Origin: Magnetococcales bacterium
Lineage (GTDB): Bacteria; Pseudomonadota; Magnetococcia; Magnetococcales; JADGAP01
Assembly: GCA_015231965.1 (NCBI GenBank)
Contig: JADGAP010000009.1
Coordinates: 1 to 43,421 of the forward strand
DNA: 43,421 nucleotides
Direction of reading: 5' to 3'
A program made the position numbers and the translations under genes. Shown one piece after another: positions 16,060 to 34,089 of the stretch. The notes beneath the pieces were generated by a model. It saw nothing but the letters and a program-made list of their open reading frames with translations. It was not told the origin of the DNA and searched no databases. The first letter of the stretch is position 1. Every line of letters starts with the position of its first letter.

Positions 16060-16378
16060 AGGAGTTGGTCGCATAACCCAGGCGCCGTTTGACGACATGG
16101 GCAATTTTATAGTAGTTCCAAATCAGTTCTGCACATTGCCAGCTAAAGAATTTATGCTCGTCATTCCCGCGAAAGCGGGAATCCAGGAAAGCCGATCGGT
16201 GAATGGCTCCCTTCAAACAAACGGAAAGGAGGCTTGGTTCCTCGTAACGATCTCTGCATTTCTCTCCCCCGCCCCCTGGATTCCCGCCTTCGCGGGAATG
16301 ACGTTTTCGTGGTTGAGGAGATGGTTGCTTAACCCAGGCACCGCTTGACGCCATGTGCAATTTTTAAATGGAATGACT
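16060..16378. repeat. Composite palindromic (MITE-like) repeat, copy 1, core 16160..16302
   Basis: Core bounded by GTCATTCCCGCGAAAGCGGGAATCCAGG ... CCTGGATTCCCGCCTTCGCGGGAATGAC; flanks carry inexact direct copies of GTTGGTCGCATAACCCAGGCGCCGTTTGACGACATG.GCAATTTT. Confidence 0.8.
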
Positions 16379-16390
16379 CTATACAAAGAC

Positions 16391-16421
16391 AGCCCCTCCC
16401 CCGGGCGTGGGAGGGGCTTTT
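16391..16421. terminator. Stem-loop terminator-like hairpin downstream of acyl carrier protein gene
   Basis: AGCCCCTCCC-ccgggcgt-GGGAGGGGCTTTT; T-tract only on + strand, so orientation is uncertain. Confidence 0.45.
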
Positions 16422-16455
16422 CAAGGCGTGGAAGGCGTGGAGGTCGTGGCGAGGG

Positions 16456-16704
16456 TCATCCCCCGCCGCGCCGCTCCTCGACAATCCACCAGGCGCTTTC
16501 CAGGGAGGCCACCTCTTCCATCTCCTCGACGCTCAGGGCGAAGCCGAATTCGCTTTCGATGGCGAAACACAGCGAGGTGTGGGCCAGGGAGTCCCAGCGC
16601 GGATGGTTGAGACGGCGGATTTCGCTCACGTCGGCGTCGTCGGGCAGGTCCAACGCCAGACGAAAGATGGTGCGCAAGGTTTCCAAATCAGCATTCCCGT
16701 CCAT
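16456..16704 (-). CDS. Acyl carrier protein-like
   Basis: MDGNADLETLRTIFRLALDLPDDADVSEIRRLNHPRWDSLAHTSLCFAIESEFGFALSVEEMEEVASLESAWWIVEE; W-D-S-L-A phosphopantetheine-site context. Confidence 0.82.
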   Translation of the reverse strand: MDGNADLETLRTIFRLALDLPDDADVSEIRRLNHPRWDSLAHTSLCFAIESEFGFALSVEEMEEVASLESAWWIVEERRGGG

Positions 16705-16760
16705 CGGGGGCTCCTGGGTCGTGGCGGCGGCTTGGGTGAAAAACCGCTGGGGTCGCGTTG

Positions 16761-16835
16761 GGTGAACGTCTGGTTGCCTTCGGCAACGGGGGGCGCGCCG
16801 CGCCGGATCAAAAGGCGATCCGGTTTGTTTTATAA
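16761..16835. repeat. Structured double-hairpin repeat, copy 3 (upstream of ACP gene)
   Basis: GTGAACGTCTGGTTGCCTTCGGCAACGGGGGGCGCGCCGCGCCGGATCAAAAGGCGATCCGG aligns with the copies at 39985..40089 and 40712..40806. Confidence 0.6.
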
Positions 16836-16909
16836 TCCTTTCATTCCAGCCCATCTTATTCATGGATTGACCGGTCTGGAGGGGATAGAACCGCGCAACA
16901 TGTTGTATA

Positions 16910-17160
16910 GTATAGTACTTTCAAAACAGTTTTGCGCCTTGCCAGCTAAAGAATCGACGCTCGTCCTTCCAGCGAAAGCGGGAATCCAGGGGCGGGGGAG
17001 GGAAATGCAGAGATCGCACCAAGGAACCAAGCCCTCTTTCCGTTCGTTTGAAGGGAGCCATTCCCCTATCGGCTTTCCTGGATTCCCGCATTCGCGGGAA
17101 TGACGGGCGAAAATTCTTTGGCTGGCAATGGGCAACACCGGCTTGGAATTGCTATAGAAT
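16910..17160. repeat. Composite palindromic (MITE-like) repeat, copy 2, core 16963..17104
   Basis: GTCCTTCCAGCGAAAGCGGGAATCCAGG ... CCTGGATTCCCGCATTCGCGGGAATGAC; outer arms TTGCCAGCTAAAGAAT... / ...ATTCTTTGGCTGGCAA extend the inverted repeat to about 85 bp. Confidence 0.82.
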
Positions 17161-18873
17161 TCAGGGGTCAAGAAGAGTCGTCAAAGAGGACTCATAGCGG
17201 CAGGGATGGATTTTTTTGAGAAAACGGACAATGGTTTTTACCTCGTTCTCGGATACGAATGGGGCCTGGATGCGCTGCAAAGGCGCGCCCTGATTGACGA
17301 AGAGACCGTCGCCCTTGCCCAGAAGATTCTCGGCGCCGGGACGATCGATGATGATGTTCGAATTGGCGATGGAAGTGACCCGGAAGGCCAGTCTGGCCGG
17401 GATATTGGCTTTCAGCTGCGGAGTCAGCACCTCGCGTGACGGACGCTGGGTGGACAAAATCAGATGAATCCCCGCTGCCCTGCCCATTTGGGCCAGTCGG
17501 ATCAGGGATTCCTCGACCGCTTTGCCGCTTTGAAGCATCAGATCGTACAGTTCATCGATCACGGTGATGATCGCAGCCGGGGCTTGGCCGCTCTTCAGGC
17601 GCCATCCTTCCAGATTGCGTACCTCCAGTTTTTCCATCTGCGCGTAGCGGCGGGTCATCTCGTTGACCAGCCAGGAGAGCACCTTCGGACATTCCTTGGT
17701 CTCCATGATCACAGGTGCCAGGAGGTGCGGCACATCTTCATAGGCGCAGAATTCCAAGCGTTTGGGATCGATAAGCAACAACCGCACCTGCTCTGGAGTG
17801 GACCGCATCAATAGGGCGCAAATCAAGGAATGCAGAGCGACCGACTTGCCGGAACGGGTGGCGCCGGCAACCAGCAGATGAGGCAATTCGACCAGGTCGG
17901 CCACAACAGGCGCGCCACGGCTATCGACGCCAACCGTCAACAGCAACGGGGCGGGATTGGATTCTGTACTCTCCAGGATAGGCCGCAAGTTGACCGTTTG
18001 CCGTTCCTGGTTGGGCAGCTCGATACCGATGAGGCCATCGATGAATGAAAGATCGACCCGCAACCCGGCTGCGGTCATGCGCAGGGCCAGATCCTCCTCC
18101 AGACCCACCACGCGAGCCGCCTTGACCCCTGGGGCCGGAGAGAAGCCAAACGTGGTGACCACTGGGCCTGGCGTCCAATGGGTGATAGAGCCCTTGATTT
18201 TGAAGTCGCCCAAAATTTGTTCGAGGGCGCATGCCGCGCGTTTTTGTTGCGCCATATCCTCGGATTCAGCCTTGAGCGCGGGGGGCACCAGCAGGCTCAA
18301 GGGAGGTCGGGGAGGCGTAGCTGGAGCCGAATCATCCCCGGAAACACCAAAATGATGGGCCATCGCGGTCAAACCACCGGCAAAACCTTGAGCCGAAAGG
18401 TGCAGACGCCATGGGCCGTTCTTGCGATAAATTTCCACTAAAATCAGGGAGCGTTCCTTCTGAAACATCTCCTTGTCGATGCGGAAGGAGGCCAGGAGAT
18501 TCCGATCTTGGTATAGGTTGAGGTGTCCCACGTCGATTTCACTGAATGTGGCGGCACCATCGATGGTGGCCACCACCACGAAATGGGAGATGGCTGCTGG
18601 CAATCGCGCCAAATCGATCTCCAGTCCTTCCGGATCATCCGCTGGAGCCGCCAAGGCAATCCCACCACAGGGGGTTGTCGGTTGGTTGAAATAGATGATG
18701 TAACGTTCGTCGGAAGCACGACCCTCGGGGTCAAGGGCAAAGCAGGTGCAATCGATGACGGATGGCATGGGAAGATCGGTCCGGATTCCCAATGCGAAAG
18801 AATGGTCGCAGTTTAGCAGTTGCTCCAAGTCGATGCGTTGACCCCGTTGCAACTCCCTCATCGGACTCTCCAC
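17161..18873 (-). CDS. TerD-domain / FtsK-SpoIIIE DNA translocase fusion protein
   Basis: N-term LQRGQRIDLEQLL...VIDCTCFALDPEGRASDERYIIYFNQPTTPCGGI...LVEIYRKNGPWRLHLSAQGFAGGLTAMAHHFGV (TerD); then FtsK alpha-like ILGDFKIKGSITHWTPGPVVTTFGFSPAPGVKAARV; then motor LLVAGATRSGKSVALHSLI (Walker A), IITVIDELYDLML (Walker B), HLILSTQRPSREVLTPQLKANIPARLAFRV. Confidence 0.9.
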   Translation of the reverse strand: MESPMRELQRGQRIDLEQLLNCDHSFALGIRTDLPMPSVIDCTCFALDPEGRASDERYIIYFNQPTTPCGGIALAAPADDPEGLEIDLARLPAAISHFVVVATIDGAATFSEIDVGHLNLYQDRNLLASFRIDKEMFQKERSLILVEIYRKNGPWRLHLSAQGFAGGLTAMAHHFGVSGDDSAPATPPRPPLSLLVPPALKAESEDMAQQKRAACALEQILGDFKIKGSITHWTPGPVVTTFGFSPAPGVKAARVVGLEEDLALRMTAAGLRVDLSFIDGLIGIELPNQERQTVNLRPILESTESNPAPLLLTVGVDSRGAPVVADLVELPHLLVAGATRSGKSVALHSLICALLMRSTPEQVRLLLIDPKRLEFCAYEDVPHLLAPVIMETKECPKVLSWLVNEMTRRYAQMEKLEVRNLEGWRLKSGQAPAAIITVIDELYDLMLQSGKAVEESLIRLAQMGRAAGIHLILSTQRPSREVLTPQLKANIPARLAFRVTSIANSNIIIDRPGAENLLGKGDGLFVNQGAPLQRIQAPFVSENEVKTIVRFLKKIHPCRYESSLTTLLDP

Positions 18874-19030: not shown

Positions 19031-20314
19031 TTAAAAGAGCCGCATACGCATCGGCGGACCGGAAGGACCGGAGGTGCCGCCGTCGTCTGGGGGAATTTCG
19101 CCGGTGACCACCAACATGCCCTCGGCCAGGGGAGGTGCCTGGGCCTCTTCCTTGGGTTCGAGGATCTCCGTGAAGCGGTTGTCGGTGATGCCCAGCGACG
19201 CCGCGACCGGATGCAACGCCTCGTCCCGCCACAGATGAAGGGTTCCCCACCCCCCTCCATCCAGGCTGGCCCGGGAGCGCTTTTCCCCACCTCCCTTGCC
19301 CGCGCCGCCCTTGCCTTCGCCCCTTCCGTCCCCGCCGCCGCCCTTGCCGCTGGCGGCGGGGGAGCCTCCCCCGGGAGCCCCTTTTCCGGCGGTGGGCTTG
19401 AAACGCAAGGCCGCGTTGGGAACCAGCAGCGCCTCCGACCGTTCCGCCGTGACGATGGTGACATAGGCGGTCATGCCGGGCAGCAGCCGTTGCTCGGGAT
19501 TGTCCACCGCCACCACCACGTCATACGTCACCACGTTTTGTTGCACGGCGGCGTTCAGGCGGATCTGCCGCACCACGCCGTGAAACGTCTGGTTGGGGTG
19601 GGCGTCGACGGTGAAGCGCACCGGCTGACCCACGGCGATTTTACCGATGTCGGCCTCGGCGAAGCTGGCGTCGATCTGCATGCGGGCCAGATCCTGGGCG
19701 ATGCGGATCAAGGTGGGGGTTTGGAAACTGGCGGCCACCGTCTGGCCCACATCCACCATGCGATCCACCACCACGCCGGAGACCGGGGAACGGATCTGGG
19801 CATAGGCCAGATTGACCCGATCCTTGTCCGTCTGGGCCTGGGCCTGGGCGACCTGGGCTTGGGCCGACTTGCGGGCCTGCACGACTTGATCCCGTTCCTG
19901 CCGCGACACGTACTCTCGGGCGAACAGGGCCAGGATCCGTTGTTCGTTGGCCAAGGCCAGTTCCAGGGAGGCGCGGACGTTTTCCAGGGTGGCGGCGCTC
20001 TGCCGAGCCTGAGCCGCCAGCAGAGCGTCGTCGAGTTCGAGGAGCATTTGCCCCTGCTCCACCTTGTCGTTGAAATCCACGTGCAGCTTGCGCACCGTGC
20101 CGGAGACTTGGGTTCCCACATTCACCAGCGTCACTGGATTGAGCGACCCGTTGGCCGAGACGGTCTGGGCGATGGACCCCCGGGTCAGGGGCTGGGTTTG
20201 GTAACGCACGGCGGGGGAGGGGAACCACTGGCTCCAGGCCAGCCATCCCCCCCCCGCCAGCAGCGGCAGGAGCAGCAGAGGCGTGGTTCGCCAAAAGGGG
20301 GTGCGCTGGACCAT
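19031..20314 (-). CDS. HlyD/MacA-like efflux periplasmic adaptor subunit
   Basis: MVQRTPFWRTTPLLLLPLLAGGGWLAW...GTQVSGTVRKLHVDFNDKVEQGQMLLELDDALL...YAQIRSPVSGVVVDRMVDVGQTVAASFQTPTLIRIAQDL. Confidence 0.9.
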   Translation of the reverse strand: MVQRTPFWRTTPLLLLPLLAGGGWLAWSQWFPSPAVRYQTQPLTRGSIAQTVSANGSLNPVTLVNVGTQVSGTVRKLHVDFNDKVEQGQMLLELDDALLAAQARQSAATLENVRASLELALANEQRILALFAREYVSRQERDQVVQARKSAQAQVAQAQAQTDKDRVNLAYAQIRSPVSGVVVDRMVDVGQTVAASFQTPTLIRIAQDLARMQIDASFAEADIGKIAVGQPVRFTVDAHPNQTFHGVVRQIRLNAAVQQNVVTYDVVVAVDNPEQRLLPGMTAYVTIVTAERSEALLVPNAALRFKPTAGKGAPGGGSPAASGKGGGGDGRGEGKGGAGKGGGEKRSRASLDGGGWGTLHLWRDEALHPVAASLGITDNRFTEILEPKEEAQAPPLAEGMLVVTGEIPPDDGGTSGPSGPPMRMRLF

Positions 20315-33030: not shown

Positions 33031-33348
33031 CTATTTCAACATTCCGTGAACACCATCCTGGGTCCAGCGCGTCGTGACCGTCGCCGCACAACAGAAGAAC
33101 CATAGGTGGGCGAAGCGGAACGGGAGGGGAAGCTCAGGAGGGGCGTTCCAGGTCGGACAGGGCGACGGCGGCACCGGATTCACCGTGCCGTTGGGGGCCT
33201 TCTTGGCGTCATCCGAACGGGTCCTGAATCGTCCATTATCGACGACCTTATTCTGAATCCCATATCGGGGGATGAGATTGCGATGAAGATACGCCACCCA
33301 CCTCGTCACCGCGATGGTGAGCCCAATGATCCCAAGGCGTTGGAACAT
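33031..33348 (-). pseudogene. 5' fragment of the 33437..34009 family with a degenerate 3' half
   Basis: MFQRLGIIGLTIAVTRWVAYLHRNLIPRYGIQNKVVDNGRFRTRSDDAKKAPNGT is nearly identical to MYRRLGIIGLTIAVMLWVAYLHRDLIPRYGIRNNVVDNGRFKKLSDDAKK; no similarity after that. Confidence 0.8.
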
Positions 33349-33436
33349 TATTGACTCCTTGTGGGCGTTGGCACCCATGGCTGGAAAGTATATTACTCTC
33401 GCAACGTCAATCCCATGGGACCAACCCTCCGGCGGA

Positions 33437-34009
33437 TCATCGCTTAATGGGCTCGCAATCAGGCGTCATGGTCGGAGCTAAAGGATCTCTTTTAGCATAC
33501 TTGAAATATTCTTCCTTGACCTCCTCGAGGGCGCCATGATCATCAATTGGTCCGCGCTCTTGAATGGCCACGTCAAGAAGGATTTCAAATATGGCATTGA
33601 CAACTACCTGATTATCCTCGCTGGAAATGCTTCCGCATGACGCCCATTGATAGCAAGACAAAGCGCCAAGCACGTGATAGAGATCTTTTTCTACATCGTT
33701 TAACTTGCAATTAAATTCATTAATAAATTTTGGAACCAAGACAGCGTCAGTCCGGGCCTTGATTTCGCGCACAAGACAATTTGTATATTCCCCCAATGGA
33801 ACCCTTGGGTTGTAAATGCCAAATTGTTTCTCCGCATCCTCCCGGCACTTGTTGATGACCTTCTTGGCGTCATCAGAAAGCTTTTTAAATCGCCCATTAT
33901 CGACGACATTATTCCGTATCCCATATCGGGGGATGAGGTCGCGATGAAGATACGCCACCCACAGCATCACCGCGATGGTGAGCCCAATGATCCCAAGGCG
34001 TCGGTACAT
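33437..34009 (-). CDS. Membrane-anchored Cys-containing protein, paralog A (candidate immunity or lysis-accessory protein)
   Basis: N-terminal TM; CREDAEKQFGIYNPRVPLGEYTNCLVREIKA...LSCYQWASCGSISSEDNQVVVNAIFEILLDVAIQERGPIDD. Confidence 0.7.
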   Translation of the reverse strand: MYRRLGIIGLTIAVMLWVAYLHRDLIPRYGIRNNVVDNGRFKKLSDDAKKVINKCREDAEKQFGIYNPRVPLGEYTNCLVREIKARTDAVLVPKFINEFNCKLNDVEKDLYHVLGALSCYQWASCGSISSEDNQVVVNAIFEILLDVAIQERGPIDDHGALEEVKEEYFKYAKRDPLAPTMTPDCEPIKR

Positions 34010-34089
34010 TTTTTGGCTCCTGGAGAGCTCCCGAATCATCGGCCCGATTGGAAAAAAGTTCATTATTCGCTCAATGAAAATCAACAAGA

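Follow-up and report, generated by a model that had tools for sequence, protein, structure and literature searches.

Gene and domain architecture at the locus

Here we analysed a window of 43,421 nucleotides (the whole stretch of DNA under study) from a Magnetococcales bacterium, on the minus strand of which lies a gene joining a TerD domain to the alpha and motor domains of FtsK (Table 1). The gene is one uninterrupted open reading frame of 570 codons when counted from a GTG, and translation probably begins at the ATG at position 18861 (the fifth in-frame codon), which gives a protein of 566 amino acids and is the place where its orthologues also start. Its coding periodicity is normal, and its GC content is 57.6% vs 62.3% for the whole window.

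Pfam profiles placed TerD at the N-terminus (aa 7-175; E = 2.9e-26; 92.5 bits against a cut-off of 25.3) and the FtsK alpha and FtsK_SpoIIIE domains after it, in the order and with the intact Walker A and Walker B motifs that a previous sequence-only reading of this DNA had described. That reading had also claimed that the membrane and gamma domains are absent, and both points held. No membrane segment is present, since the highest 19-residue hydropathy (1.55) falls within a TerD strand, and the gamma winged helix (KOPS, XerCD; PF09397) gave no match at E <= 1 in the protein, whose chain ends about 10 residues past the motor match. Neither a vWA domain nor a nuclease or other effector domain was found in the protein by Pfam.

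Table 1. Position of the terD-ftsK gene, its domains and its motor motifs in the window.
Feature	Position	Strand	Evidence or remark
terD-ftsK fusion gene	17161..18873	-	ORF, Pfam and orthologue starts
TerD domain, TerF/TerA-type subclass, acidic GDN..GDDE stretch absent	18349..18855	-	Pfam, alignment and tree, structure matches 3ibz and 2kxt
FtsK alpha domain, aa 190-288	18010..18306	-	Pfam, E = 2.7e-21
FtsK RecA-like motor (beta) domain, aa 302 to ~560 (Pfam part 302-479)	17194..17970	-	Pfam, E = 1.4e-52; sequence comparison; structure matches 2ius and 6t8o
Walker A GATRSGKS, aa 337-344	17842..17865	-	Arg for the usual Gly, common to all four fusions
Walker B ITVIDEL, aa 436-442 (D440, E441)	17548..17568	-	Alignment with orthologues
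Arginine finger R465, equivalent of PaFtsK R620	17479..17481	-	Alignment; residue role from PMC7321959
Loop I, aa 502-506 (I502, N506 at the PaFtsK K657, R661 positions)	17356..17370	-	Alignment; roles from PMC7321959

Distribution and genomic context of the fusion

The survey of genomes for the same architecture, which the sequence-only reading had proposed, yielded three further full-length members among 48 genomes of the order (G006, G016 and G039; 52-54% identity), all of them Magnetococcales MAGs by their public records and belonging to a different family of the order from the window genome (G000). Between G039 and G016 the estimated dN/dS is approximately 0.12-0.15 overall and 0.20 in the TerD part, both the TerD and the motor halves being under purifying selection in this pair. 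Because the same architecture occupies a single frame in three independent genomes at this level of identity and with these dN/dS values between two of them, we could exclude an assembly artefact or two genes merged by a frameshift, the latter being a weakness that the earlier reading had itself pointed to. The TerD-FtsK fusion is confirmed as a real single protein, very rare, in a magnetotactic-type bacterium.

When GTDB r220 was scanned with the TerD part, the only TerD-FtsK fusions recovered were the Magnetococcales proteins, the other matches being two Pseudomonas TerF-type proteins (TerD plus vWA) and one Selenomonadaceae TerD protein, and the same part searched against 300 Bacillota genomes gave TerD frames of up to 477 amino acids, those inspected being TerF-like, TerA-like or plain TerD; scans of this kind could miss fusions built on a very different TerD subtype. 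A profile of the whole protein matched end to end in the same four genomes only, out of 399 Pseudomonadota genomes, and none of the plasmids (3570 with a match) or phages (257) covered 80% of the fusion protein in one place. A literature text search for TerD with FtsK turned up no description of the fusion by title or abstract and no mention of it by term in PMC7824862, the 2012 Ter survey of Anantharaman, Iyer and Aravind being outside its scope. Both parts of TerD-FtsK are known, and their combination appears new, no description of it having turned up in the literature searched.

At none of the four loci is the fusion accompanied by a conserved partner gene, a nuclease or a ter gene. The neighbourhoods differ among the four genomes, with only G016 and G039 sharing theirs, a site near mreBCD that is empty in those congeners with enough flanking sequence, and the G006 fusion lies approximately 100 kb from the mreBCD-near site. 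Based on these different neighbourhoods, the empty site in congeners and the low GC content, the fusion behaves like a patchy accessory gene that was gained separately or has moved. In the window it lies downstream of a HlyD/MacA-like gene (19031-20314, minus strand) that lacks the ABC-ATPase gene coming after HlyD in two relatives (L092 and L093). As it is the ABC ATPase that follows HlyD in these relatives and no other TerD-FtsK gene adjoins HlyD, we rejected an operon with HlyD. The repeats reported on the downstream side are indeed there (16103-17161); they are, however, copies of a dispersed element of about 200 bp with approximately 40 near-full copies genome-wide, unrelated to the fusion, and were rejected as a functional part of the finding. 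Inverted copies of this palindromic repeat (16103-16275 and 16989-17161) flank a small ORF (16456-16704, minus strand) with an acyl-carrier-protein-like sequence but no Pfam match. Elsewhere in the window there is a local duplication, in two adjacent ORFs (33031-34063, minus strand) that both contain RLGIIGLTIAV..WVAYLH.

The statement that no other ter genes flank the fusion is correct for its immediate surroundings, but a terB-terD-terD group is located on another contig (C274), so that Ter partners do exist in the window genome. In this region (L022, 8840-19040) the ter group adjoins a CRISPR-Cas cluster with cas3 and a CT1975-type gene, encoded on the opposite strand. Co-occurrence of the fusion with classic TerD was considered and set aside: other TerDs are present in all four fusion genomes, yet also in many relatives (chance 0.12; not significant).

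The stress or phage-defence role suggested from the sequence is possible, but draws no support from this genomic context, in which neither conserved neighbours nor a nuclease partner were found. The patchy, mobile-looking distribution would suit an effector working by itself against phages or plasmids, with TerD as the sensor of a threat signal and incoming DNA as the target of the motor, and so would the captured FtsK motors known in anti-invader systems (PMC10853773) and the implication of ter genes in phage inhibition (PMC8123226). We nonetheless think such an effector unlikely, considering that neither the domains of the protein nor its neighbours include a nuclease or another effector, and that the PADLOC match to SspH and its like spans only their generic motor. 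With that match so confined and the motor grouping with cellular FtsK, identification as an SspH defence protein was rejected.

Origin of the two halves and conservation of the motor

Analysis of the TerD phylogeny grouped the fusion TerDs with the N-terminal TerD of TerF (TerD plus vWA) and TerA-like proteins (support 99/97; Pseudomonas L025 and L027, Bacillota L083 and L084) and not with classic TerD/TerE. An FNQ signature is common to the fusion TerDs and these proteins, as is the lack of the acidic GDNxTGxGxGDDE stretch, which is missing in all four fusions and present in classic TerDs, including that of Klebsiella; the vWA or second Ter domain of the TerF/TerA-like proteins is replaced in the fusion by the FtsK alpha-beta part. 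For Klebsiella TerD, calcium binding has been demonstrated (Pan et al. 2011, cited by PMC8123226). The acidic stretch would correspond to the calcium site, and judging from its absence the fusion TerDs have presumably lost classic calcium binding. Gating by calcium or another metal, as envisaged in the sequence-only reading, is hence not supported, the TerD being of the TerF/TerA type without this stretch. In one Selenomonadaceae protein a zinc-ribbon-like segment precedes a TerF-type TerD (L028:5629-6468).

The four fusion motors form one clade (98/90) beside the canonical Magnetococcales FtsK, in a tree whose long branches leave the deeper branching order unsure, and this clade stands apart from the DndE-FtsK proteins of about 500 amino acids and from an SspH-like protein also found in this order; the grouping shows a single origin of the fusion motor. 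The DndE-like proteins with FtsK alpha-beta are soluble, lack gamma, occur in eight Magnetococcales genomes (L065-L072) and are probably linked to phosphorothioation systems. Another FtsK-like motor closes a 1060-aa protein with an N-terminal P-loop-like region that adjoins canonical ftsK in G001 (L064:1103-4285).

Sequence comparison of the motor and alpha domains placed the fusion nearest to canonical dsDNA-translocating FtsK (E = 1e-94), far ahead of EccC/EssC, and the motor is 42% identical to its structure match 2ius. A peptide pump, which the earlier description as a DNA/peptide pump had allowed for, is accordingly unlikely, and a Type VII-like one was rejected. Structure prediction, also proposed in that reading, agreed with the domain assignment. 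The AlphaFold2 model, obtained from a 51-row alignment (the four sequences alone gave a pLDDT of 44), reached a pLDDT of 93.6 and a pTM of 0.80, confidence being low in the linker alone (around aa 175-200); because this alignment combined TerD and FtsK sequences as separate entries, the model carries no information on how the domains are placed relative to each other, and a monomer model says nothing on the oligomer state. In Foldseek the model matched FtsK motors of E. coli and P. aeruginosa, DNA-bound ones among them (E down to 7e-48; TMt ~0.90 for the FtsK-dsDNA complexes 6t8b and 6t8o), and the TerD structures 3ibz and 2kxt (TMt 0.76 and 0.72, respectively).

Compared with FtsK/SpoIIIE (PF17854 + PF01580 + PF09397), the fusion has the same alpha-beta motor and carries TerD at the N-terminus in place of the membrane domain. 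The roles of the arginine finger (R620), of loop-II R632 and K643 and of the DNA-gripping loop-I K657 and R661 are known from the structure of PaFtsK with DNA (PMC7321959). Walker A, Walker B, the arginine finger and both loop-II residues are kept in all four fusions, and the loop-I pair in the three orthologues. From these conserved positions the fusion motor should hydrolyse ATP and the orthologues should grip dsDNA as FtsK does. Two changes common to the four fusions, unlike the canonical FtsKs compared, are the replacement of a Walker A glycine by arginine (GxTRSGKS) and of loop-II V635 by arginine, and the canonical Magnetococcales FtsKs have a longer loop before Walker B than the fusions.

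The window copy is peculiar in that both loop-I contacts are lost (K657I and R661N) and loop II carries G640P, changes found in none of the other three fusions. With both loop-I contacts gone, it may hold DNA less firmly or in a different way. These substitutions, together with the longest branch of the four in the motor tree (0.83) and a position downstream of a HlyD gene without its ABC-ATPase neighbour and adjoining dispersed repeats, could mean that the window copy is drifting to loss of function, a remnant of a gene still functional in the other lineage alone. The full-length frame, the intact Walker motifs and arginine finger and the normal coding periodicity make this quite improbable, and we would give it little weight.

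A different role is conceivable for a motor with approximately 47% identity to canonical FtsK and without the anchor and gamma: it could modulate the host FtsK, joining or competing with its rings and so damping or redirecting chromosome segregation and division under Ter-sensed stress. The placement of the motor clade beside canonical FtsK and not among the defence types agrees with this, as does the separate canonical FtsK of the window genome (contig C135). The long branches, however, suggest divergence away from the FtsK interfaces, and the orthologues keep the full catalytic and DNA-contact set, superfluous in a passive modulator; we therefore regard modulation of FtsK as improbable. The rival explanations discussed here overlap in part.

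Possible role of the fusion in Ter-linked DNA handling

The explanation that we prefer, tentatively and with somewhat less than even confidence, is that the fusion is a captured FtsK motor with a Ter-linked DNA-handling role in a stress or anti-invader response. Under such a scenario, a single event would have joined alpha-beta from a cellular FtsK to a TerF-type TerD, which would have replaced the membrane anchor and left a soluble dsDNA motor. We infer that the alpha-beta part would form a hexameric, ATP-driven ring translocating on dsDNA, and that TerD, tethered flexibly to the alpha side by a linker, would act as a docking or sensing module for a ligand or partner of the Ter system, its binding controlling the place or time of ring loading or activity. 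Without gamma, the motor would be freed from KOPS reading and XerCD activation, neither of which is expected of it, and this argues against a chromosome-dimer-resolution protein. The fusion might then pump DNA or strip bound proteins from it during the response.

Such a capture has precedents, as anti-invader systems took up the alpha-beta part of cellular FtsK in what has been termed HerA/FtsK capture (PMC10853773). These systems (DndH/SspH, DndE-FtsK) are likewise soluble multidomain proteins with an acquired FtsK-type motor, some of them with FtsK alpha, whereas the fusion has no nuclease or wHTH partners and no Dnd/Ssp neighbours and its motor groups with canonical FtsK. PMC7824862 proposes that Ter parts include ligand-sensing (TerB, TerD) and sub-membrane (TelA, TerF vWA) components. 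The putative Ter link of the fusion rests on domain homology.

Whether the fusion stands for a new class of Ter-regulated soluble dsDNA pump, in which a Ter system took over the FtsK ring and swapped its anchor for a ligand- or partner-binding TerD, is a stronger claim that we consider rather doubtful. The ter genes confer resistance to tellurite, phage and colicin, and a connection with DNA processing has been put forward chiefly on comparative-genomic grounds; to our knowledge, their biochemical job is unsolved. If the fusion were such a pump, it would link ter genes to DNA handling directly, at the molecular level. TerD-FtsK offers a single protein in which this link could be assayed directly, through the gating of a dsDNA motor by TerD and through the ligand or partner involved, and FtsK capture would gain a case with a stress-system domain, instead of a nuclease, as the fused part.
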